From Acetatifactor sp. (GTDB taxonomy: Bacteria > Bacillota > Clostridia > Lachnospirales > Lachnospiraceae): DNA of 44,504 nt. The notes beneath the pieces were generated by a model, which made no database searches, was not told where the DNA came from, and saw only the letters and a list, made by a program, of their open reading frames with translations. The stretch lies in contig JAIDME010000217.1 of assembly GCA_029050705.1 (NCBI GenBank), forward strand, positions 1 through 44,504, written 5' to 3'. The position numbers and the translations under genes are program-made. Of the stretch, positions 956-13,236 are shown piece by piece. Within the stretch, counting starts at the first letter, position 1; each line of letters begins with the position of its first letter.

Positions 956-1779
956 AGCAGCATACCTCCTCCTTCCACAGCCTCGCCGTCATCAAACTGA
1001 TTCATGATACCCATGCAGATCAGAATGATCACCATCAGCACCAGTGACACGGCGGAACCCAGATTGGGATTGTAGGCGCTGCCCAGAAACTGCATATCAA
1101 TCAGGTCGCCGATCAGCAGATTCCCGCCGCCGCCCAACATTTTTGATATGATAAACGTACTCACTGCCGGAACAAATACCATGGTGATGCCGGAGATCAC
1201 ACCGGGCATACTCAAAGGAATCACTACTTTCAAAAAAACTTCCCTGCTGTTGGCACCCAGATCCTGAGCCGCTTCTATCACACTCTTGTCAATTTTGGTC
1301 AGCACTGAATATAACGGCAGAATCATATACGGTATATAGTTGTAGACCATGCCAAGCACCACTGCTCCCGCTGTGTTGATCATATGTATCCGGGGAAGCC
1401 CTACAGCAGCCAATGCCGAATTGATCAGGCCGTTATCCTCCAGCAGTGTCATCCATGCATAGGTACGCAGCAGGAAATTCATCCACATGGGCAGCATCAC
1501 CAGCATCACCATGACATTCTGACGCCTGGCATTCATTTTGGCAATGATGTATGCCAGGGGATAACCCAGTCCCAGAGAAACCGCAGTTGCCACCGCCCCC
1601 AGCCAGATGGAACGTAAAAATACATTGGAATATTGTCCTACGCTTAAAATATTTTCTAAAGTAAAGCTGCCTGATTTATCCGTAAAGGCAAAGTATCCTA
1701 CCAACAGCATAGGCAGTACAATGAAAATGGTCATCCAGACAGTGTAAGGCGCAGAAAGCAATTTTGAATCAGACTTCAT
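952..1779 (-). CDS. potB: spermidine/putrescine ABC transporter permease PotB
   Basis: First permease subunit of the polyamine importer, 275 residues from the start chosen here. A longer open frame reaches 1899, but that would run 130 bases into potA. The ATG at 1779 has AGGAGG nine bases upstream inside the potA tail and gives a normal PotB beginning ([12 protein letters not shown]) followed by a membrane segment. A second possible ATG lies two codons upstream. The EAA loop is visible as [21 protein letters not shown]. The overlap with the potA stop at 1769 is 11 bases and the overlap with potC four, so the three are translated from one message. Confidence 0.92.
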
Positions 1780-2917
1780 CCTCATTGCCCTCCTCTTCCG
1801 CCAACGCCTCATTGGAAGCATTCCTGTCTTCTCCCATTTCATCACTGAAGGTACTGTAGTCTCCGAACATACCGGAATATTCTGACTTGGCCATGACATG
1901 AATATCGTTGGGAGTAAGGGACAGTCCTATGTGGTCACCTGTCTCACAGCATTCCGTAGACTGTATCATCCACTTAAAGCCCTCCACATCCACAATGATC
2001 TCATAGTGCACGCCCTTAAAGGTCACAGCCGTGACATCCCCGGTGATCAGGGTGGAATCAGGCTCCACTACCTTGATGTCCTCCGGGCGTATCACTACAT
2101 CCACAGGTGTATTTTTGCCAAAACCGGCATCCAGACAACGGAAATTATGCCCGGCAAACTTCACGGAATAGTCCTCCTGCATGACGCCGTCCAGTATGTT
2201 GGATTCCCCGATGAAATCAGCCACAAAAGCATTCCTTGGCTCATTATAAATATCCATGGGAGTGCCGATCTGCTGTATCATACCCTTGTCCATCACCACC
2301 ACGGTATCGGACATGGACAGGGCTTCCTCCTGATCATGAGTGACGAATATAAAGGTAATCCCTGTCTGCTGCTGTATCTTTTTCAGTTCCGCCTGCATAT
2401 CCTTGCGCAATTTCATATCCAGAGCGCCTAACGGCTCATCCAACAGCAAAACCTTAGGTTCATTGGCCAATGCCCGGGCAATGGCTACTCTTTGCTGCTG
2501 CCCGCCCGAGAGCTGACTGATGCCGCGATGAGCATAGCCGGACATATCCACCATAGCCAGCATTCTGTGCACAGTCTCCTTGATCTGCTTCTCGCTGCAT
2601 TTCTTCAGTCGCATACCAAAAGCGATATTGTCATAAACATTCAGGTGAGGAAACAAAGCATATTTCTGGAAAATTGTGTTGACTTCCCTCTTGTGCGGGG
2701 GTAGGTTGGTTATGTTTTTGTCATAAAAAAAGACATCCCCTGCATCCGGTCTGATGAAACCGGCAATGGTGCGAAGCGCTGTGGTCTTGCCGCATCCGGA
2801 GGGGCCTAACAGGGTAACAAACTCCCCATCATGTATCTCCAGATTAAAGCCTCCCAGAACCTGCTCCCCATCATAAGAAACAGTGATATCTTTTAAGGAA
2901 ATAATAGTATTTTTCAA
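1769..2917 (-). CDS. potA: spermidine/putrescine ABC transporter ATPase PotA
   Basis: ATP-hydrolysing subunit of the polyamine importer, 382 residues. Walker A is GPSGCGKTT (about residues 38-46), the signature is [15 protein letters not shown], Walker B is [11 protein letters not shown] and the switch histidine lies in [11 protein letters not shown]-terminal regulatory (TOBE-type) region follows to about residue 350. It ends in a very acidic tail, EEEGNEDEV, whose codons also carry the potB ribosome binding site. The initiation codon is TTG at 2917-2915, with AGGAG nine bases upstream. A good promoter lies 60-90 bases upstream. Assignment to polyamines rests on overall resemblance and on the potB/potC partners. 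Confidence 0.93.
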
Positions 2918-2976
2918 TTGCGGTATCTCCTTTGCGGTTTCAGCATGACTTTTTCAGATGTAAATGCAATGAGATA

Positions 2977-3005
2977 ACTATACGGGATATCAGGGGGGTT
3001 GTCAA
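2977..3005 (-). promoter_or_regulatory. promoter of the pot operon
   Basis: On the minus strand TTGACA (3005-3000), a 17-base spacer and TATAGT (2982-2977) make a near-consensus housekeeping promoter. Transcription would start about 50 bases upstream of the potA TTG codon. The plus strand across 2990-3022 also reads as a CAGGGG/CCCCTG hairpin followed by a T run, which could stop transcription coming from the left. Confidence 0.75.
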
Positions 3006-3051
3006 TCATTTCCCCTGTTTTTTGTATAAATTGGATATACATGCTGCTTCC

Positions 3052-3109
3052 TTAATCGGCTATACTCGCCGCTACGCACAGCGCTCCCTCAGCTCACTTA
3101 TGTCAAGTT
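3052..3109 (-). pseudogene. relic of an S8 peptidase gene 3' end (copy A)
   Basis: The minus strand reads GALCVAASIAD and then a TAA stop at 3054-3052. This matches the last residues of the intact S8 peptidase at 11119 (WGALCVASSLPG). The resemblance ends abruptly at an AACTTGACATAAG sequence (about 3097-3109). Two similar relics with comparable junctions lie at 4304 and 5691. No complete gene is attached, so this is a leftover of recombination or insertion. The rest of 3110-3231 shows no gene that can be supported. Confidence 0.55.
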
Positions 3110-3231
3110 GCGAAACCCTTGCAGAGAAATCATTTTATTACCTTCATGTTTTGTCATCCACAAAAACAAAAAATCCGATTTGAGAGCAATATGACACTGC
3201 TCGCCCTTGTGGATTTGCTCCATGCCTGTTC

Positions 3232-4164
3232 CTAATAGAAATTAGCAATTCTCCCCTCATTTATTCCATAAATAAGATAATGCTTATACAGCTCACCCCT
3301 GTCATATCCAAATGCTGCTTCTAAATCGGAATATCTGTCGGCATAATCTATATAATCAAATTTATCTATCGTTACTTCTGTTCCCCCGAAATTAGCAATT
3401 CTCCCCTCATTTATTCCGTAAGCGAAATAGTGTTCATAAAGTGCATCTCTGTCATACCCAAATGCAGCTTTTAAATCGGAATACCTGTCGGCATAATCTA
3501 TATAATCAAATTCGTGCATCCTTCCTCCAATGGAGGCATATGTATCTGCCAACCAGGGATTGTTGCTGTCAATATCTGTAGGATCCCAATTTCTGCAGGG
3601 AGAATCTTCCGGTATTTTGATTGCTGTAGGCTTTCCAAGTTCCAATTGTTCTTCGCTGTCAGAGTATACAACTACGGTTGTACCGCGTTTACAGTTATCA
3701 TATATCCATTTGGCATCCTCGACAGATACTCGGACGCATCCTAACGATGCGCCTTCTCCAAGTTTATTGTACTCTTCCCATTCCAAAGTATCAGGGGATG
3801 CAGACAAATAGGGTACGGAATGGAACAGGATTGATTTATTAAAGCGGACTGCATATCTTCCATAAGTGCCATCTACCATTAGACACCATTCATAATAATT
3901 GGAAGTTTCAAAACTACCTTCCGGAGTATCATGTCCCTCTCTTCCACAGGAACAGACCATTGCCTTAACAGCTGTCAGAGTGCCGTCTTCATTTTGCTGC
4001 CTGATCGTAATACAGTTTAGAGCTTTGTTTACATAAATAATATAATCAGGTCTTGTATCATCTGCGGTATTTAATTCTGCCGCACTTACATTGACTGCAG
4101 AAAATAACATAATCAAACATACAAAACTTACTAAACTTATGATGGACGCCTTAAATATTTTCAT
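3232..4164 (-). CDS. secreted L,D-transpeptidase (YkuD) with C-terminal repeats
   Basis: A 310-residue exported protein that probably forms 3-3 cross-links in peptidoglycan or attaches proteins to it. An N-terminal signal peptide (residues 1-28, ending SAA) is followed by a YkuD domain (about 40-168) with the active-site pattern: His115 in LFHSVPY, then Ser140-Leu-Gly-Cys143-Val-Arg145. Cys143 is the expected nucleophile. The tail holds two near-identical ~41-residue repeats (219-259 and 269-309) starting FDYIDYADRYSDL and ending YGINEGRIANF. This type of repeat is common in secreted clostridial proteins and is probably wall- or ligand-binding. The gene has its own promoter at 4210-4238 and an AAAAGGAA ribosome binding site. 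It stands alone between recombination scars. Confidence 0.88.
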   Translation of the reverse strand: MKIFKASIISLVSFVCLIMLFSAVNVSAAELNTADDTRPDYIIYVNKALNCITIRQQNEDGTLTAVKAMVCSCGREGHDTPEGSFETSNYYEWCLMVDGTYGRYAVRFNKSILFHSVPYLSASPDTLEWEEYNKLGEGASLGCVRVSVEDAKWIYDNCKRGTTVVVYSDSEEQLELGKPTAIKIPEDSPCRNWDPTDIDSNNPWLADTYASIGGRMHEFDYIDYADRYSDLKAAFGYDRDALYEHYFAYGINEGRIANFGGTEVTIDKFDYIDYADRYSDLEAAFGYDRGELYKHYLIYGINEGRIANFY

Positions 4165-4209
4165 ATTAACTTCATTCCTTTTCTCTTTTGCATTTGATGT
4201 AGCTTTGTA

Positions 4210-4238
4210 ATTCTATCATATTCTCAAAACAAACTCAA
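4210..4238 (-). promoter_or_regulatory. promoter of the L,D-transpeptidase gene
   Basis: On the minus strand TTGAGT (4238-4233), 17 bases, then TAGAAT (4215-4210), preceded by TGA to make an extended -10. Spacing to the ATG at 4164 is about 40 bases. Confidence 0.6.
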
Positions 4239-4303
4239 CATTCAATTTATTAAGATTTTCTACACTATTGACGCACTGAAGACGAACAGGATACTGTGTT
4301 AAC

Positions 4304-4454
4304 TCACTCCGGTATACTCTCTGCTACGCACAGCGCCCCCCAGCCAACCCGGTCGTTAGGCAATTCCGCCTCCCCTCTTAAGGGTCTCGCCCCTTTCCTC
4401 AGATACGCCTTCACCTTCTCCCCATACAAAAACGGGTCATTCCCCCGCACGATT
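4304..4454 (-). pseudogene. duplicated 3' end of an S8 peptidase gene (copy B)
   Basis: Bases 4323-4454 match 11138-11269, the end of the intact S8 peptidase gene, at 130 of 132 positions in the same orientation. The differences are at 4369 (C against T, giving Ala for Thr) and 4451 (G against A, silent). The frame continues to its own, different end (AESIPE, stop at 4306-4304, where the intact gene has ASSLPG). It is therefore the tail of a paralogue, not a copied identical end. Upstream, the match stops next to an ACTTGACA sequence (about 4463-4470). There is no start and no catalytic domain. The following 4455-4608 contains no supportable gene, only an imperfect repeat of GCTGGTGT around 4458 and 4530. 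Confidence 0.85.
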
Positions 4455-4608
4455 ACCGCTGGTGTCAAGTAATTGCTACAGATTTTTTTAACTTTTTGCC
4501 TCGATTTTCCTTGAAAAATCGTTGGCTGGTGTTAGCTTATTGCTGTTTTACCAGGAGGTGCTGTTACATTGTTGCTGCACATGCTCTACCATAAATTTCC
4601 AATAGCTA

Positions 4609-5211
4609 TTAATTTAGATTTGTGCTGTTTTCTATATGCGACTGCATACTAAATAAAGAAATTTCAAAATGCATTTCCAAAGCATCAATATACTCTCTAC
4701 ATTCAATTTCCATCGGACAAGCAAGAAGTAAACTCTTTCCTGTTACTTTACTAACCCCAATATGTATATCCCAATCTTTTAAAATATCCATTCCAATCAA
4801 GATATTTCCTTTTCGATCATAATTCAGGCATATCTTATCAGATGATATCTTTACTCCACCTATCATAAAATCAGATATTCCGTGCTCAAATTTCATGGCT
4901 GGACACTCCATTTTTTCATCATCCGTAACCAGAATTTCATGCCTTAATCCTCCAGATTCAATTCCATAACTGAGAAAATATGGTGTACCATTCATAACAT
5001 CTATCTTTTTCAATGTTTTGAACAATGTGTCAGAAACTTTTAGCCTTTTGAGCGGAATGGTACTGATCGAACAACCTGTATCAATTTTCACTTTAATATC
5101 ATAAAAAGGCGCTTTAAAATTATCTAGACAAAAACTGGCTTCTGTACTGAATGAACCGCCTATCCCACAAGTTGTAGGCAACATTTCAATCTCTATATAT
5201 TTATTCATCAT
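4609..5211 (-). CDS. retropepsin-like aspartyl protease-fold protein
   Basis: A 200-residue protein without a signal peptide. The only strong motif is IDTGCSIST at residues 43-51, the Asp-Thr-Gly-(Ala/Cys)-Ser flap-active-site pattern of single-domain (retroviral-type) aspartyl proteases. A second hydrophobic-Gly stretch (ILIGMDILKDWDI, about residues 137-149) matches the 'ILLGMDFL' strand seen near the end of this fold. Such domains usually work as dimers. The gene overlaps the end of the 93-codon gene upstream by 11 bases, so the two are probably translated together. The target is unknown. The pair lies in the patch bounded by S8 peptidase tails, close to the SIR2-kinase gene. An ATG one codon downstream is an equally good start. 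Confidence 0.65.
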   Translation of the reverse strand: MMNKYIEIEMLPTTCGIGGSFSTEASFCLDNFKAPFYDIKVKIDTGCSISTIPLKRLKVSDTLFKTLKKIDVMNGTPYFLSYGIESGGLRHEILVTDDEKMECPAMKFEHGISDFMIGGVKISSDKICLNYDRKGNILIGMDILKDWDIHIGVSKVTGKSLLLACPMEIECREYIDALEMHFEISLFSMQSHIENSTNLN

Positions 5212-5482
5212 ATACAGCCATATCCTTCAATTCCTCTTTATCATTATAAATAGGAATTATCGTTTTTGGCTGCATAACCCAACTATCATATTCCTGATTT
5301 TGCACATCTCCACAAAACACAAGTTTTCCAATCGCACTCTCTGTATCGTCAAATAATAAGATCATATACTCATTATATATTTCACTAAGTTGTTCCGCCT
5401 TTGCCATCATGCTAATATACAAATCTTTTAGTGTATACTTCTTTTTCAGATATAGCCATTCTTTCGTGCTCCTTCCCTGCAT
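5201..5482 (-). CDS. small protein paired with the aspartyl-protease-like gene
   Basis: A 93-residue acidic protein of unknown family. It has no membrane segment or recognised motif. Residues 20-45 look helical, and the end (about 60-93) is strand-rich with several Trp/Tyr. It is coupled to the downstream gene by an 11-base overlap. The start is uncertain: the ATG at 5482 has its purine-rich sequences either too far upstream (AGAAGGAA, about 20 bases) or downstream of it (GGAAGGAG at about 5475). The latter would initiate a different frame that stops after 15 codons. Internal ATGs at codons 25-26 are alternatives. A promoter with an extended -10 (TGGTATAAT) lies at 5539-5547. Confidence 0.55.
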   Translation of the reverse strand: MQGRSTKEWLYLKKKYTLKDLYISMMAKAEQLSEIYNEYMILLFDDTESAIGKLVFCGDVQNQEYDSWVMQPKTIIPIYNDKEELKDMAVYDE

Positions 5483-5548
5483 ATATACATTCAGCTACAT
5501 TATTTCCTTCTATGCTTCTTATTATGTTCTCTCTCAGAATTATACCAT

Positions 5549-5584
5549 AAAGCAGGCGAATATAAAATCATCTTCGCCTGCTTT
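5549..5584. terminator. bidirectional hairpin terminator
   Basis: A perfect 12-base stem, AAAGCAGGCGAA (5549-5560) and TTCGCCTGCTTT (5573-5584), with a 12-base loop and T-rich sequence at both ends. On the minus strand it would end transcripts coming from the SIR2-kinase gene just before the promoter of the small two-gene operon. Confidence 0.7.
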
Positions 5585-5690
5585 ATTCTTCTCTCCACGT
5601 TCTCTCATTTTTCGGTCAATAAAGTTATTCTATTTCAAAGCAACAAACCAACTTGACGTGTTCGCCACAAAAATATGAATCTGCATTAAC

Positions 5691-5750
5691 TCACTCGGCA
5701 GACTCGAACTGACTCACAGCCCGCCCCAGCCCTCTTATGTCAAGTTAATG
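5691..5750 (-). pseudogene. relic of an S8 peptidase gene 3' end (copy C)
   Basis: The minus strand shows GGCTGGGGCGGGCTGTGAGT followed by a stretch ending GCCGAGTGAGTTAA. It aligns, with small gaps, to the tail of copy B (GGCTGGGGGGCGCTGTGCGT ... CCGGAGTGAGTTAA). It is out of frame and degraded. Just upstream stands AACTTGACATAAG (about 5738-5750), the same junction as in copy A. The alignment is short and was made by eye. Confidence 0.45.
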
Positions 5751-5943
5751 TCTCAAACTTTTTTGAAGTAAAATCGCTGAAACTCACATAACTTCGTTGG
5801 GTGTACGGTTAATTATTGCTAAGTTAGGGCAAAATAATGGTGATTATTGTCCAACAGTTTTTAAGTTAAATCAACTTTACCAATAGATATTTCTAAACAA
5901 AAGCCCCTCAACCCCTCCCTCAGATACTGGTTTGCCACTTCTC

Positions 5944-8322
5944 CTACTTCAATTCTAGTTCAGTTCGAATAACTTTTATATTCTGTGCCATCTGAACAAT
6001 TGTCTCATGCGTGATGGCCTTTGAAAGCTTTGCCTCCAAATCGATTAGAACTTCACTCATAAGTATGTTACCTTTACTGTTTCGGAATAGCGAAGAATCT
6101 ACTTTAGACAACGCTTTATTTTTTGCATTTTCCAAATATTTTTCTGTTTTGGTCCGATTTTCCATTCCCATGCGCAATTTTCCAATCTGAATCTGAAGCA
6201 AAACATCGTTATTCCGCTGTGCCAATTTCATATGAATCTTTTTTCCTAACGTATTTGTCTCTAGCAGTATTTCTCGCCCGAAGTCAGAGACTTTATAGCT
6301 ATTGTCATCATCAATCTGGGCTACCAGTTCCCGTAGTAATAATACATTCGTACTTGAAAGGTTATCCGAAAGAAACATGTTCAAAGCCAAATCTATATTT
6401 GCCAGATATGCGTTCAGAGACAGGCGATCAGAAGCCTTTTGCATAGTAGCTTTCACCACGGTTTCCGCAAGCAAATTTGGCAGACATTTCCAGCCAATCT
6501 TTTTATACTTATCTTCAATGTTCCTCACCAATTCATCCTTAAAATTAGGGAAACACTGCTGATTGGGCACAGGATTTCTACCCGTTAACACATAATAAGT
6601 AATCATCCCAATGCTGAATACATCCACTGCCGTATTTCTGGTACCAGTTTCATGCTCATCCGTCTGCTCTGGTGCCATAAATCCCTGAGACATCTTACCT
6701 AAAGCCACCGTCAATTCCGTTGCACCTTTATGCCATGATAAGTCGAAATCCAAAATCACCACTTCTGGTATGTCATCTGAATATTCCCCATAAAAATCTT
6801 TAAGTATCACATTTTCCGGTTTTAAATCCCGATGCAAGATGCATTCCTCCAGATTATGGGACTGACAAATAATCTCAGCCATCTTTTTCAGAACTTGTAA
6901 TTTCTTATGAAATGACTGAAGCGCTTTTTTATCTATCGCATCACGAATTGTATATCCATCCACAAAATCCATAACTATACATGCTGGCACCTCATAAGAA
7001 GAATGTATTTTTACCATACCCTCCACATCATGCTCTTTCAATATTTTCATGGATCGGATTCCTCTACGGAAACAGCTTAAATATCTTACTTCATCCTTTA
7101 CTTCGGGAAGCAGAATCTTCACAGCAAATCTCTCTCCAGCGCCATTATATGCCTCATACACATTGCCAAATGCACCTCTTCCTACCGGTCTTTTTAACAG
7201 ATATCCATGCAGAATCTGTCCGTCATTGGAATCAACTTTCACATACCACGCTGCATAGAGCTGCATTGAATATGTTTTGTAGAATTCTTGCAATTTTTTT
7301 ATCTGTTCATTGGTTGGCACTGTATCAGCAGGTAAAATTTGTGCAATATTCCCATTTAATATATCCCTTAATTTATCCAACCCTATATCCAAACATTTCA
7401 TTGCTTCCGGGATATCTTCAGGTGCATATATTTTTCCTTCATATACCGTAGGATACTCTATGTCTTTCGGCAAATATTTGTGGATACTTTTAAGTATTTC
7501 CTCAATATCAGAATGATTCTCGTCTTCTGGGGTAGGAGAATATGAAATACAACTGATACCATAATCTCCAAACTTTCTCATATCCTCTGGTAAAATATTC
7601 GCACCAATATAATAATTATCATTTCCGGCAATCATTCCCTCTATTGAGATATCATTCAGCAATGACAGAAAACTATTTTCCCTTATATCAAAACCAACAA
7701 TCACCAGATTCTTTCCATTCAGTAATGTATTCAACACACTTTTAAGATTTCTGTCCCTATATGTCTCTCTTTTCTCCTCCTCTGTAAACACCCATGAAGA
7801 TGCATCGCTAATTTCACCATGAGGGAAGAAGACAAATTTCTCATTACTGGTGGGAAAATTGTTATATTTTAAAAATTCCTTTCTTGTGGCAAAGTCAACA
7901 GCAGTCCGATATACGTTAGAATAAGCATTAAGAATCAATTTATCTATATTAAATGTTATAACTCCACATACATCCAACTGCCAAATCAATTTGTAATTGA
8001 CTGGAATCGGACGATCTTTGTCAGATAAACGTTCCATAATATATTTTTTATATTCATTTTGAGGCAAAAGTTTTTTTAGTTCTTCAAAAACAGTCCAATA
8101 ATTCTCCGATGCCCTCAGCCTCTTTATCCTCTCCTCTGTAGAATCTATGGAATCCTGCATCATTTGCTCATAATTATCAATCATACCTTGTGCCAACTCT
8201 GACCACAAAGGCATTCCGGCAGGACGGGACATACCAGCACCTAAAACAAAAAGAAAGCTTTGCGGATTTTCCTTTATCTTTTTTGTAAGACGCAATAAAT
8301 TTTTATCAGTAGTATTATACAC
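5944..8322 (-). CDS. SIR2-like / Ser-Thr protein kinase fusion, candidate defence protein
   Basis: A 792-residue cytoplasmic protein with three parts. Residues ~15-285 form a SIR2-like domain: GAGMSRPAGMP at 28-38 (NAD-binding loop), FNID at 124-127 (matching the T-Q-N-I-D strand), HG at 168-169 in FFPHGEI (catalytic His), and VIVGFDIREN at 207-216. Residues ~373-640 form a eukaryotic-like kinase: GRGAFGNV at 381-388, Lys402 in AVK, HRDLKPEN at 497-504 with Asp499, DFD at 525-527 in place of DFG, and APE at 550-552. The last ~150 residues are helical and unassigned. SIR2 domains in bacterial defence act as NAD-depleting effectors, and kinases occur as sensors or switches. The fusion suggests infection-triggered NADase activity controlled by phosphorylation, which is inference. 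The ribosome binding site AAAGGAG is well placed. It sits in a patch with IS relics and repeats. Confidence 0.85.
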   Translation of the reverse strand: MYNTTDKNLLRLTKKIKENPQSFLFVLGAGMSRPAGMPLWSELAQGMIDNYEQMMQDSIDSTEERIKRLRASENYWTVFEELKKLLPQNEYKKYIMERLSDKDRPIPVNYKLIWQLDVCGVITFNIDKLILNAYSNVYRTAVDFATRKEFLKYNNFPTSNEKFVFFPHGEISDASSWVFTEEEKRETYRDRNLKSVLNTLLNGKNLVIVGFDIRENSFLSLLNDISIEGMIAGNDNYYIGANILPEDMRKFGDYGISCISYSPTPEDENHSDIEEILKSIHKYLPKDIEYPTVYEGKIYAPEDIPEAMKCLDIGLDKLRDILNGNIAQILPADTVPTNEQIKKLQEFYKTYSMQLYAAWYVKVDSNDGQILHGYLLKRPVGRGAFGNVYEAYNGAGERFAVKILLPEVKDEVRYLSCFRRGIRSMKILKEHDVEGMVKIHSSYEVPACIVMDFVDGYTIRDAIDKKALQSFHKKLQVLKKMAEIICQSHNLEECILHRDLKPENVILKDFYGEYSDDIPEVVILDFDLSWHKGATELTVALGKMSQGFMAPEQTDEHETGTRNTAVDVFSIGMITYYVLTGRNPVPNQQCFPNFKDELVRNIEDKYKKIGWKCLPNLLAETVVKATMQKASDRLSLNAYLANIDLALNMFLSDNLSSTNVLLLRELVAQIDDDNSYKVSDFGREILLETNTLGKKIHMKLAQRNNDVLLQIQIGKLRMGMENRTKTEKYLENAKNKALSKVDSSLFRNSKGNILMSEVLIDLEAKLSKAITHETIVQMAQNIKVIRTELELK

Positions 8323-8376
8323 GCTCTTTTCTCCTTTATCATTATTACAATATTAGCAAAACACTTTATTTGAAAA

Positions 8377-8402
8377 AGTATATCATATACACCAGTTTAC
8401 AA
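8377..8402 (-). promoter_or_regulatory. probable promoter of the SIR2-kinase gene at an IS end
   Basis: On the minus strand an extended -10 (TGA then TATACT at 8382-8377) lies about 55 bases before the ATG. The region where a -35 would sit falls inside the left terminal repeat of the IS4-type element starting at 8386. An alternative reading is TTCAAA, 17 bases, TATGAT. Both place part of the promoter within the IS end. Confidence 0.45.
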
Positions 8403-8407
8403 CTTTT
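8386..8407 (+). repeat. left terminal inverted repeat of the IS4-type element
   Basis: Begins TATACACCAGTTTA and pairs with 10653-10674, with about 20 of 22 positions matching and the first 14 perfect. Confidence 0.6.
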
Positions 8408-8439
8408 GAATACTTTTAAAACCCGACAAAATATAGCGC

Positions 8440-8640
8440 TCAATTATTTTAATTCAGGAAGCTTAATTTCTTTATAGTTTCGAGTTTTCTACAAAACTGC
8501 TGAACATTATGCTGGCCTGAATTTATTGTTCAATACCAAAACGGGGTTCCTCTACGCTGGCAACCTGGTAGCATGAAAAGGCTTCCTCACTAAATGAGCG
8601 CAGCGTCATGGCGCTATTACTTCGGCAGTTAAATCCCGCA
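8440..8640 (-). pseudogene. C-terminal piece of the IS4-type transposase
   Basis: The minus strand reads SAMTLRSFSEEAFSCYQ, then VASVEEPRFGIEQ, a TAA stop, and IQASIMFSSFVENSK. This is the typical end of clostridial IS4-family transposases. It lies beyond the IS630 insertion from the N-terminal piece, so the original gene was cut by that insertion. It has in-frame stops and no start. Confidence 0.6.
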
Positions 8641-8644
8641 ACCT

Positions 8645-9691
8645 TTAACAACCATATTTTTCAATATAATTTAGTTTCCTATGCTTGAACAAACTTGCGA
8701 CTCTTTCCTTATGTTCCTGCAATCTATGCATATAAGCCTCTGTCTTTTGCTGATTCTGCACTTTAGTGTGCGGAATTATTCCGCTATGTATATTTTGTTT
8801 AAGGTTATGGTTAAGGTACTCATCCGGATTTATTTCCGGCGAATATGGCGACGTATAGAATATCTCTATCTCATCTTTGTGTGAATCCAGCCACTCGTTT
8901 ACGATCTTTTCATGATGTACCTTCAGGTTATCCACTATGAACAAGACTTTTAGTCGGCATCTTTTACAAGGCGCTCCATAAGGTCAATAAAAAACTGCTG
9001 GATCATATTTTCTTCATAGCATATGAAGCGGCAGGTTCCATGGTTGGTGATTGCATAAACCATGTTAATTTTTTCTATCTTGTTATAGGCTACTATTTCA
9101 GGCGTCCTCCCTTTGGTTGAATAGCCTTTGACATGGTATACCTGGTTGTTGATGCCTGTTTCATCACCCTAGTATATTTCCGCATCCTCCTTCTCGACTT
9201 TTTCAACGATGCCGGAATATGTCTCATGCATAAATGCATTGAATTTGACATTATCCTGAAAATAAGCTTTCCTTGTCGGACACTGGCAGATCATCCCCCA
9301 ACATTTGCGGTACTCGCTCATGTTCCTAGGGGGTTATAGTAATGCCGTATTTATCATATATGATTTCACAGACTGCTACACGAATCCAAAGCATGAAATT
9401 CAATTTCAACTGGTCAGAATGTTTGTCAATTAATATGCCCTGGATTTCCTTTTCCTGTCCAGGTGATAACTGACGTTTTTCACCCAGTTTACGGCTGCGT
9501 GTCTTTTCTTTAAGGCACTTAGCGCCCTCCCTATTATAGACGCCTAAAAAACGGTCAACAGCATATTTGAAAATGCCCCATGCTTCAACAATATCTTTAT
9601 GTTTGATCCCCTTCTTAAGCATAGAGACTGCCTGTTTTTTAATAACTTCTCTTGTATCCAGATTTTCTGATGTAAGGTTTATATTTTCCAT
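8645..9691 (-). pseudogene. IS630-family transposase, inactivated
   Basis: Reading down from the ATG at 9691: a helix-turn-helix part (LDTREVIKKQAVSMLKKGIK ... LSPGQEKEIQGIL), an in-frame TAG at 9328-9326 with a frameshift, then the DDE core from MSEYRKCWGMICQ. The core includes IVEKVEKEDAEIY-stop-GDETGINNQ, where TAG at 9171-9169 replaces the usual Trp. A second frameshift falls near 8950, after which VDNLKVHHEKIVNEWL and YSPEINPDEYLN lead to the stop at 8645. At least four lesions make it a dead gene. It sits inside the IS4-type transposase gene, in the same orientation. Confidence 0.85.
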
Positions 9692-10553
9692 TCCCGCTTT
9701 TCGGGAGCGTAACAATGGCATAGCCCCCCGTTCTCCCCACAGCTTGGTGAGCACTGGGCGCATGCCTGTCTTCCAGTCCCCGGTTTTTGGAGATTCAAGC
9801 TCGGATTTTTCCGGTGATAGACGTTCGCCATATTTCTTTGGCCGGCCACGTTTCCCCGTGCGTTCAGGCGGGAGATCATACATGACAATGTCAATCCTGA
9901 CGTTACAGATGATGTCAAGGTAATGGAACTCATTTACAAGACCTGCAACGCACTCTTTTGGATACCAGCTGTCACAGAGCAGGAACACCTGCCTGTCCGG
10001 ACCGATCTTATCCATTGCGCGTCCCACAATCTCCGCGGCATTTCCAGCTTTGTCGTTTTTTGTTCCAAAGTCGGCAGCCCAGCGGGACAGATAGATAGCG
10101 AATGGAACCATCAGCCATAACAGGGAATGACAGCAGGATGCTTACCATGCAGAGTCATCCAGATAATTGGAGCCGTTATACGCGACATGGTCGAAGAGCC
10201 TTGAGTGGATTTCAAGCTTTTCGCCTTCCTTTTCCACCATAGTGTCATCAATGGGAAGAAAAAGCGGCTGCTCCTTTAAATAGTCAGGCACCGTCCTCAA
10301 CACTTTGGATAGTGTCACATTCCTCCAGAATTCGTGGTCCAGCCTGTCGGTTTTAATCGCATAGTAGCATGCATTCAGTGATGTGTCTGAAAGATTTGAG
10401 AGCACATGCCTGTGTGCAAATCGTACAGACCGAAAAAAACAGCGCCAATATGGAAACAACAATAAGGAACAGGTTCCTAGTAGTAGGTTTTGTTGCATCG
10501 GAAAAATATTCATCAAAATAAGGTTTCAGTTTGTCCAAGACAGAACTTTTCAT
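9692..10553 (-). pseudogene. N-terminal and core part of an IS4-type transposase, frameshifted
   Basis: Starts MKSSVLDKLKPYFDEYFSDA at 10553, shifts frame around 10430-10450, and continues as RHVLSNLSDTSLNACYYAIK ... PLFLPIDDTMVEKEGEKL (first catalytic Asp region). It shifts again near 10140 and reads HYLDIICNVRID, YDLPPERTGKRGRPKKYGER and TGMRPVLTKLWGER before another shift at about 9725. There the IS630 sequence takes over. The family is identified by the DDT and ICNVR/RTGKRGRP motifs. An open frame that runs through into the IS630 part is a chance fusion, not a gene. Confidence 0.75.
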
Positions 10554-11118: not shown

Positions 11119-13113
11119 TCACCCCGGAAGACTTGAGGCTACGCACAGCGCCCCCCAGCCAACCCGGTCGTTAGGCAATTCCGTCTCCCCTCTTAAGGGT
11201 CTCGCCCCTTTCCTCAGATACGCCTTCACCTTCTCCCCATACAAAAACGGGTCATTCCCCCGCACAATTCCCCACTCCATGAGCAGGGCCGCCGCCCCGG
11301 TGACTATGGGAGTGGCAAAGGAAGTTCCTGTGACGGGCAGATAGCTGCCGTAAATGTCCGGTGCCGTCACTCCCACTCCCGGCGCCACCAGGTCCGGCTT
11401 CACCAGCCCGGAGGTCACAACTCCTATGGTCCGGTCCGCGTCCGCATACCCTCTGCCTGAAAAATCCGCATAGGCATCATAGGTGCTGTCATAGGCCCCC
11501 ACTGTGATGACCTTTGCCGCCGTGGAGGGAATGGTCAGGGTCACCTCCGGTGTGGGACGGTAAAAACCGGTTGTCGCGCTGCGGGCGGCCGCGCTGGGCA
11601 GATAAAAATAATACTGTCCGGTTACGATTTCAATGCCTTCCAGGCGCACCATCCACACCCCACTGTTGATGTACCGCCGCCCGGAGGGGATCAGTTCCAG
11701 ATAGATTTCCTGTGCTGCCGCGTAGGGCGTGGGTTCCCCCATGTAGACCAGCACCTCCGTCTGCTCCAGTCGCAATGTATACTTTCCATTCTCCACAGAC
11801 AGCGGCAGTTCCGACTCCTGCCCTCCGGGTGCGCGCAGCCGAATCCTATATACGTCACTGTAATTTTTCCACAGCTGAATGCTCAGAGAACTCTCGTACT
11901 CTCCCACCGCAATCTCCACATCTGCCGTGCGGGCTGCTGTGCTGATTCCAGATACCGTTCTACCGATTCCGGACGCTGATGTGCCAACACCCTGCATCGT
12001 CTGTCCGCTCCCTGCTCCTGCCCCGTCGATTCTTCCCAGTCTTCCGGCCAGATGACCGGCACTTGCTCCGTCATTTCCGCTGCCTACGCAGATGACCGTC
12101 CTGCCGATCTCCGCCGCATTATCCATGAACCGCTCCAGAAGGGAACTGCCGTCATGGGCTCCGTAGCTGTTGCCGAAGCTTAGATTAATGGCCAGAGGCA
12201 TCTGCAGTTCCTGAGCCTTTCTCACTGCCCAGGTCACTCCCCGCATGATCTCCGTAGTCCTGGGAAAGGATGCTGCGTCCGGCAGCCCAAGCTTCACGAT
12301 CAGCAGCTCCGCCTCAGGCGCCGCCCCGCTGTAGTACTGCGCACCACCAAAAGGACTGGTGTTTCCGCCTCCTCCGCTGTACCCGGCGGCAATTCCGGCC
12401 ACCGCCGTGCCGTGGCCGCTTGTGTCCACCGTGGGAAGAAGCATAAACTGCTGCTGCGGTGTATCCGCCTGTAACGCTGCATTAATCTGTGCCGCGCCAA
12501 ATTCCACCCCCTGCCGAAATCCCGCAGGGGGACGACGCGCAGATTCAACGAATTCCGCCGACATGCCATCATCCCCTATCCCTGTGGATCCGCCCTCCGT
12601 CCCCAGACGCCTTTCTTCGCCCCCGATATCAACATCGGAAAAAGTATCAGACCGCAGAGTCTGATCCCACAGATAACGAATCCTTGTGCTGCCGTCGGAA
12701 TGCCGGAAAACCGGCAGCCGATAATCGATGCCGCTGTCCAGAACCGCCACCAGCACCCCCTTTCCCGTCAGAGAAAAACCCTGCCCGGATAACTGCTGTA
12801 TGCAGGAATCCGCGACAGGGTTCGTCACCTCATAGAAAAAGCGTTTGGGCTTTTCCACATATTCAATTTCCTCCAGTTCCACAACGCGCTCAACCAGTCC
12901 CTCCGGAACGGTAAGCACGGCATATCCTGCAATCAGATACTCAATCTGCACATTTAAAACCGACAGCACATCCAGACTTCCGTGATACTTTACAATCAGC
13001 TCCCAGGTCCTCTCAATGCCGTTAAATCCTACATTCAACTCCTCCGTACGCTCTCTTGTCTCCTCCGATGTCTGCAGCGCCAGCTGCAAAAGGTCCTCCA
13101 GCTTCTGATTCAT
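11119..13113 (-). CDS. S8 family (subtilisin-like, Csp-type) serine peptidase
   Basis: A 664-residue protease with the full catalytic triad of the subtilase family: Asp126 in AVLDSGID, His234 in TSGHGTAVAGIAAG, and Ser598 in GTSFATPIVTGAA. The oxyanion Asn is near 347 in GSGNDG. About 100 residues of prodomain-like sequence precede the core, and a ~130-residue insert (about 370-530) separates the His and Ser parts. This matches the clostridial CspA/B/C layout involved in spore germination or other processing. No signal peptide is seen. The start was moved to 13113 because GGAGG lies six bases before this ATG, while the upstream frame start at 13158 has none. The last 132 bases are duplicated at 4323-4454. 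Confidence 0.88.
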   Translation of the reverse strand: MNQKLEDLLQLALQTSEETRERTEELNVGFNGIERTWELIVKYHGSLDVLSVLNVQIEYLIAGYAVLTVPEGLVERVVELEEIEYVEKPKRFFYEVTNPVADSCIQQLSGQGFSLTGKGVLVAVLDSGIDYRLPVFRHSDGSTRIRYLWDQTLRSDTFSDVDIGGEERRLGTEGGSTGIGDDGMSAEFVESARRPPAGFRQGVEFGAAQINAALQADTPQQQFMLLPTVDTSGHGTAVAGIAAGYSGGGGNTSPFGGAQYYSGAAPEAELLIVKLGLPDAASFPRTTEIMRGVTWAVRKAQELQMPLAINLSFGNSYGAHDGSSLLERFMDNAAEIGRTVICVGSGNDGASAGHLAGRLGRIDGAGAGSGQTMQGVGTSASGIGRTVSGISTAARTADVEIAVGEYESSLSIQLWKNYSDVYRIRLRAPGGQESELPLSVENGKYTLRLEQTEVLVYMGEPTPYAAAQEIYLELIPSGRRYINSGVWMVRLEGIEIVTGQYYFYLPSAAARSATTGFYRPTPEVTLTIPSTAAKVITVGAYDSTYDAYADFSGRGYADADRTIGVVTSGLVKPDLVAPGVGVTAPDIYGSYLPVTGTSFATPIVTGAAALLMEWGIVRGNDPFLYGEKVKAYLRKGARPLRGETELPNDRVGWGALCVASSLPG

Positions 13114-13236
13114 GTCACGCCTCCGTGCCGCCGGTGGCGGCACACTCTTTTCTCTCACAGAAGCCTATGCGTGGGAGTCCGGGCCTAGTACACCCCGCGC
13201 CAATTAATCATATGTTTCCCTTATCTAAAAATCATA

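Follow-up and report, generated by a model that had tools for sequence, protein, structure and literature searches.

Probable scars of mobile elements with serine-recombinase triplets behind an S8 peptidase gene of Acetatifactor

Displaced peptidase tails between the S8 gene and potABC

The window analysed here, 44,504 nucleotides of Acetatifactor sp. DNA (contig JAIDME010000217.1, assembly GCA_029050705.1), carries on its minus strand an intact S8 peptidase gene and, between this gene and potABC, three displaced copies of the peptidase 3′ end. In the minus sense the order is S8, transposase-like relics, a SIR2-kinase gene, an A-type element end and a tail; two open reading frames (ORFs), a B-type end and a tail; an L,D-transpeptidase gene, an A-type end and a tail; and then potABC. 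The features are listed below (G and L numbers are our labels for genomes and loci).

11119-13158, minus: intact S8 peptidase gene (CspB prodomain and Peptidase_S8; Pfam PF00082, PF18425), the target (attB) gene, native 3′ end intact; orthologue at the same place in sister genome G036 (L037)
5944-8322, minus: cargo of the S8-proximal segment, a 792-aa defence-type protein with SIR2-like domain and protein kinase (Pfam SIR2_2, Pkinase; PADLOC mad6 and PD-T4-6 kinase matches)
5730-5849, minus: complete A-type right end (about 120 bp), terminating ACTTGACATAAGAGG at the GG core (profile E=2.5e-31, covariance search E=2.9e-28; both models were built from 7 sequences, this copy among them, but it also matches other copies directly)
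5691-5733, minus: displaced S8 3′ tail (GWG, site A) that forms the left end of the middle segment (S8 tail profile; sequence)
5547-5586, no strand assigned: hairpin behind the tail (ATAAAGCAGGCGAA...TTCGCCTGCTTTAT), S8 terminator-like (sequence; same element after S8 in G073, L180)
5201-5482, minus: 93-aa cargo ORF of the middle segment (present in G085, between S8 and potA, and in G073, behind S8)
4609-5211, minus: 200-aa cargo ORF of the middle segment (same occurrence in G085 and G073 as the 93-aa ORF; no Pfam match)
4456-4568, minus: nearly complete B-type right end, terminating ACTTGACACCAGCGG at the core (B-type profile, which includes this copy among its sequences, E=3.2e-25; aligns with ends of B-clade recombinase elements L098 and L100)
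4307-4457, minus: displaced S8 3′ tail (site B, MEWG|IVRG), 48 codons (94% identity to the 3′ end of the live S8 gene; in sister L037 it runs on from S8 without a break)
3232-4164, minus: L,D-transpeptidase (YkuD) gene of the oldest segment (PF03734; adjoins S8 in L037)
3095-3109, minus: A-type right end of which decay has left the last 15 bp (AACTTGACATAAG plus core; profile only E=0.65, 13-mer exact)
3052-3094, minus: displaced S8 3′ tail (site A) beside potA, the original gene end (sequence; weak S8 tail profile match; S8 upstream of potA in L037 and L039 too)

A first-pass annotation of this DNA had reported three S8 tail relics with ACTTGACA just upstream in the minus sense, in two cases as AACTTGACATAAG, and both the motif positions and an S8-tail profile confirmed it. 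ACTTGACA occurs exactly three times in the window (3101-3108, 4463-4470 and 5738-5745), always on the minus strand, and AACTTGACATAAG twice (3097-3109 and 5734-5746). Three copies in 44.5 kb are not significant by count alone (shuffle mean 1.13, at least three in 12 of 100 shuffles); their placement is non-random, each lying no more than 15 bp upstream of a tail relic and in the same orientation. The profile matched the intact S8 3′ end and exactly three relics in the window, nothing more. The relic at 4304-4457 matches the 3′ end of the live S8 gene at 94% identity across 154 bp and translates as IVRGNDPFLYGEKVKAYLRKGARPLRGEAELPNDRVGWGALCVAESIPE followed by a stop, that at 3052-3094 as GALCVAASIAD and a stop, and that at 5691-5733 has a GWGGLCVSSSLPS-like end in which the stop arose through TGC-to-TGA. 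The annotation had also held that the relics are cut at different points. Two cut points do exist but not three, as the relics at 3052 and 5691 share one site directly before GWG (site A), and the relic at 4304 is cut at MEWG|IVRG (site B), some 35 codons earlier.

A search of the assembly for AACTTGACATAAG returned one further copy, on contig 181, again adjoining an S8-type tail. On that contig (L036 of G000, the window's own genome; 1192-1440) lies a second array-like place, with an A-type end, an S8-type tail (GYGQLDLQGTFDVMIGV and a stop) and, within 100 bp, a second ACTTGACATAA junction and another S8 tail.

No large serine recombinase (LSR) gene was found within the window. The locus is laid out as three decayed, LSR-free segments, each running from an S8 3′ tail to a ACTTGACA end, stacked between the intact S8 gene and potABC. 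The right ends decay with distance from S8 (E=2.5e-31, 3.2e-25 and 0.65, the first two values being partly circular, as the window copies helped to build the profiles), and the oldest segment is the one adjoining potABC. Because S8, the transpeptidase gene and potA are adjacent in sister genome G036 (L037), the 4304 relic is read as the displaced S8 end of that arrangement. The SIR2-kinase cargo has no second copy among 138 genomes of the genus, and the idea that it is a travelling cassette was rejected on that ground. Transposase-like relics, judged from their letters, lie between S8 and the SIR2-kinase gene (8645-10516, minus), and the 200-aa cargo ORF at 4609-5211 (minus) contains a DTG motif (KIDTGCSISTIPL) and is possibly a retropepsin-like aspartic protease.

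Conserved ends, recombinase triplets and target sites

Shared sequence reaches well past the 10 bases beyond which the first-pass annotation had required a common element. It covers some 120 bp at 5730-5849 and some 113 bp at 4456-4568, and each of the two stretches matches a family of ends from other genomes. Further copies of the 120 bp that precede the junction at 5746 are present in the same genome and in other genomes of the genus; the alignment shows a conserved end with recurring motifs that resemble AACTTGACA, a block CNACGAAGTTATGCGG and, at the close, AACTTGACATnAGnGGG. In two pairs of loci (L016/L028 and L017/L029) an LSR gene, the last of three in tandem, stops about 120 bp before the conserved end. 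LSR triplets in relatives likewise terminate shortly before ACTTGACAnnAGnGGG, which is fused at the GG core to S8 or M23 peptidase genes, and three adjacent LSR genes near an element end were found in L028, L029, L032, L150, L152, L155, L165 and others; in L029 all three proteins have Resolvase, Recombinase and Zn-ribbon domains. When 84,980 genomes were scanned with an LSR alignment, 80 loci came up, almost all of them in Lachnospiraceae or relatives, and in many of these ACTTGACA lies 20-350 bp after the LSR gene, fused to protease codons. ACTTGACA is the core-proximal arm of the right end of an LSR-driven element family, and the suggestion that it marks the end of a mobile element repeatedly inserting into S8 genes is borne out.

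The fetched loci contain 92 distinct A-type ends, of which 86 lead into codons of S8 or M23, a proportion that is not an unbiased estimate, since the ends were partly gathered through S8-related searches. By pattern, 75 of these adjoin site-A S8 codons, 3 site-B S8 codons and 5 M23 codons; the other 3 are S8 tails recognised by eye among 9 unclassified ends. B-type ends join S8 at MEWG|IVRGND; for D-type ends the junction is the catalytic SG|IDY and for C-type ends LYGEKVK. Ends and target have only a run of G (the GG core) in common, a very short direct repeat of the kind (2-8 bp) seen in serine-integrase triplet elements. Both the left and the right junction with a split target gene lie in a single locus in L100, L104, L110, L069, L070 and L093. 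In L100, L104 and L110 the S8 gene is broken at site B; its 5′ portion terminates at GGGG|GGAGGGAGTTATAATAAGG or a close variant, and its 3′ portion comes after the LSR triplet, following ACTTGACACC or a close variant. The A-type left ends in L069, L070, L074 and L085 read GGGG|CTTATGGTATAATAGTGTCAAGTTAG or close variants and furnish S8 with a substitute end in frame (...GIIVSS or ...GNIVSS before the stop); from these sequences, ACTTGACA is inverted at the two ends of A-type elements. A-type ends fused to other genes (reading GIETLVYNRYGEAARLA and GLKAMEELAKLEA) occur in L135, L137 and L142 and in L024, L187 and L146, and the targets of the family therefore extend beyond S8 and M23.

Target sites follow recombinase relationships: mapping them onto a tree of 52 LSRs takes 4 changes, where the least possible is 3 and shuffled labels average 18.4 (0 of 200 shuffles as low). 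Because site labels track the LSR tree, the differing truncation points in the window, site A for 3052 and 5691 and site B for 4304, reflect different recombinase clades. Of the repeated one-ended transposition that the first-pass annotation had offered as another source of the junctions there is no sign, as they fall at a fixed GG core in conserved codons and, in relatives, beside site-specific LSRs. A plasmid or phage origin of the LSRs was also considered and set aside, only distant relatives (about 35% identity or less) being present in both collections. No conjugation or mobilisation genes were recognised by eye, no profile scan being made, in the ORFs of the complete 8-11-kb elements L165 and L167; most elements extend beyond the fetched DNA.

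The annotation had further pointed out that TTGACA in the junction equals a −35 box. No sigma-70 −10 box was found 16-18 bp after TTGACA at the window junctions, and a promoter there was rejected for that reason. The idea fares better on an excised circle, where we infer that TTGACA would stand 17 bp from a TATAAT-like −10 of the left end (TTGACA-N17-TATAAT): in 6 of 7 pairs of joined ends, TTGACA or TTAACA is followed after 17 bp by TATAAT, TATTAT or TAATAT, the G count in the joined core being assumed from the codons of uninterrupted relatives and the seventh pair (L074) depending on that count. A promoter formed on the circle of a Tn4451-type element was reportedly described by Lyras and Rood in 2000.

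Recombinase-free segments and competing accounts

A native-tailed S8 or M23 gene followed by LSR-free cargo, a right end and a displaced tail was found in the window, L033, L151, L157, L159, L164, L180, L228, L234, L235 and the second part of L032. The native tail is present in 11 of 11 LSR-free loci versus 1 of 11 LSR-bearing loci, the other 10 having a substitute end (p=3e-5; tallied by hand after the data had been seen, with L084 not easy to call). None of the 14 segments examined between consecutive ends contains an LSR. These recombinase-free segments measure 1.3-8.5 kb. Arrays reach up to four ends behind a single LSR triplet in Parablautia intestinalis, strain D8-82 having one triplet, then four ends and three cassettes, with intact ends on its LSR-free segments. 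Nineteen aligned post-junction sequences, from several species and with differing cargo, have in common an S8 tail and a stop codon, with a hairpin behind the tail in most.

Two hosts (L042 and L068) share a segment of 5,633 bp that is 99.8% identical between its cores, whereas the flanks are at a background level of about 50-56% and the adjacent LSRs only 66% identical, which argues that these units move; the left limit of the segment lies at the core to within about 15 bp. Its genes, one for a 689-aa ATPase-like protein and the other for a UvrD-like helicase, are read as the two Gabija genes, GajB by a PADLOC match of the Parablautia homologue and GajA from inspection of the protein sequence. 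A 3.58-kb segment is 97.9% identical between G092 and G111, with its right limit at the core.

Other loci showed further features of cargo and tails. Two-gene cargoes were seen in L159 (5026-6998), where the genes are PDC-M31A/B candidates by a very strong match in PADLOC, and in L151 (11312-13009), where an unnamed partner accompanies an AbiLi/AriA-like ATPase. In L033, the M23 tails at 7990-8476 and 9764-10225 that flank a single-gene (PBECR4) segment are identical for about 460 bp and then diverge abruptly. In L055, L069, L164 and L206 a second short S8-like end directly follows the first stop or is inserted in the tail, as if tails had been replaced repeatedly.

We consider it quite probable that the scraps in the window are scars of mobile elements with LSR triplets, LSR-free segments of tail, cargo and right end having inserted successively at S8. 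In the proposed mechanism, LSR triplets would cut at the GG core within conserved codons of S8 (and M23) peptidase genes, and LSR-free segments (S8 3′ tail, cargo and right end) would enter the S8 gene one after another. Each incoming segment would supply its own S8 tail, leaving S8 whole, restoring the site and pushing the previous tail downstream; an LSR triplet elsewhere in the cell would act in trans, recombining the S8 site with the right-end/tail junction on a circular form of the segment. Comparison across genomes shows the ends, the fixed sites, the link between clade and site, the absence of LSRs from the segments, the arrays and a segment whose limits agree between two hosts. Movement of the segments by trans-acting LSRs, through recombination of the right-end/tail junction with the S8 site, is what we infer from them.

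Several points weigh against this account. No circular form or movement was observed, and recombination of a right-end/tail junction with an S8 site is not a standard LSR reaction; we know of no such LSR pairing. The one recognisable LSR triplet of the same genome, on contig 92, is decayed and lies inside a deacetylase gene, not S8. For the G092/G111 segment the left limit is inexact, about 25 bp inside the tail, the first 25 bp or so of which are only about 73% identical; the notion that every cassette's left limit falls exactly at the core fails in this pair and was rejected. Between the window and G036 (L037), potA, potB and fcl are more than 99% identical but apeB, S8 and the transpeptidase gene only about 94%, and homologous recombination has therefore also reshaped this place. 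The contig 92 triplet itself (L240, reverse strand, about 1246-6212) ends TTGACACGAGCTGAGGG|ACACTTAATCGG in a polysaccharide deacetylase-like gene with a GHLIGNHTYSH motif.

The main rival is ordinary decay and accretion, by which complete LSR elements would have inserted serially and lost their recombinases and left ends, like cis-mobilizable elements (CIMEs), with S8 repaired by homologous recombination with an incoming copy. Tandem integrated elements have been described as arising by accretion with decay (PMC5704250), decay is seen in the right ends of the window, and the roughly 6% divergence at apeB, S8 and the transpeptidase gene, against less than 1% at potA, potB and fcl, attests that recombination acted here. 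Yet S8 repair would be needed in all 11 LSR-free loci, sparing cargo and right end and with a second crossover lacking guiding homology; the Parablautia LSR-free segments have intact ends, and the 5.63-kb segment is LSR-free in both hosts, nearly identical and limited at the core. We regard this rival as rather unlikely. Simple tandem duplication of S8 followed by deletion was rejected, as no S8 5′ remnant lies between the relics.

The TGT...ACA ends had first suggested a DDE insertion sequence of IS21 type that prefers S8 genes, and TGTCAAGT...ACTTGACA ends with internal repeats do resemble IS21 ends. The genes beside the end in relatives, however, are LSRs with Resolvase, Recombinase and Zn-ribbon domains, on which ground the proposal was rejected; the junctions fall at a fixed GG core in fixed S8 or M23 codons rather than in varied targets, and no istA or istB transposase genes were found between the ends, the genome having just two weak IstB-domain matches, on other contigs. 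Such an origin is very improbable. Chance proximity of a promoter-like octamer to three S8 pseudogene fragments accords with the unremarkable count in 44.5 kb and is harder still to credit, as all three copies stand at S8 break points in a single orientation, two of them within family ends of 113-120 bp, and the same junction recurs in many genomes; the comparison with relatives refutes it. Scars of LSR-triplet elements remain our preferred explanation, and the interpretation of the first-pass annotation is, overall, partly supported.

Known systems, distribution and meaning

Integrons place a recombinase at one end and recombinase-free cassettes in a row, the proximal cassette being the newest. 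The arrays described here are laid out in the same way, but their recombinases are serine recombinases, not the tyrosine integrase IntI; the cassette ends are an S8 tail and a ACTTGACA end, with a protease gene as the attI-like site. Staphylococcal cassette chromosome (SCC) elements are known to form composite arrays and to carry defence cargo. Like the family studied here, SCC elements use large serine recombinases and insert in a gene whose end is kept or replaced, CcrAB and CcrC acting in rlmH and CcrDE in rimL, with action of the CcrDE recombinase in trans reported (PMC10581047). Unlike SCC, the present family has a triplet rather than a Ccr pair, several sites in one gene and segments of 1.3-8.5 kb, and its targets are S8 and M23 peptidase genes, not the rlmH 3′ end.

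CIMEs and tandem accretion of integrated elements have been described (PMC5704250), the former being recombinase-free, att-flanked remnants stacked at one gene. Recombinase-free segments flanked by att-like sites at the target gene were found both in the window and in the 14 end-to-end segments of relatives; a difference from CIMEs is that apparently mobile units whose ends are intact occur here, with a copy of the end of the target gene as their left end. Serine-integrase triplets occur in Streptococcus integrative and conjugative elements inserted in mutT, traG and hsdM, which similarly have three tandem co-oriented LSR genes near the element end, protein-coding targets and very short direct repeats (PMC4701971). 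The present elements differ in their S8 and M23 targets and in the LSR-free gene-tail cassettes arrayed behind, and in L165 and L167 (8-11 kb) a conjugation gene was not recognised by eye. Tn4451-type elements (TnpX; PMC3158075) are also clostridial large serine recombinase elements with a 2-bp target, unlike the present ones in having a single recombinase instead of a triplet, and multi-targeting LSRs have been described (PMC10083194). LSR triplets and tandem accretion are already known; no report of S8 or M23 targets or of tail-carrying recombinase-free cassette arrays was found in the literature searched, which comprised open-licence papers only.

Covariance searches with the end model, which used the end sequence only, up to the core, found the A-type end in 33 of the 138 genomes that represent the genus and, across the family, in 15 of the 334 genera sampled. 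The cassettes often carry anti-phage defence genes. We tentatively propose, as a possibility somewhat short of even, that the system is a serine-recombinase counterpart of the integron, in which LSR triplets insert and shuffle LSR-free, often defence-carrying cassettes at protease genes, each with a copy of the target 3′ end and a terminator. ACTTGACAnnAGnGGG together with an S8 tail provides a search handle that marks new defence candidates by their position, and the system yields recombinase/site pairs for several conserved gene motifs. If true, the proposal would explain the gain and loss of phage-defence genes at fixed chromosomal places in gut Lachnospiraceae.

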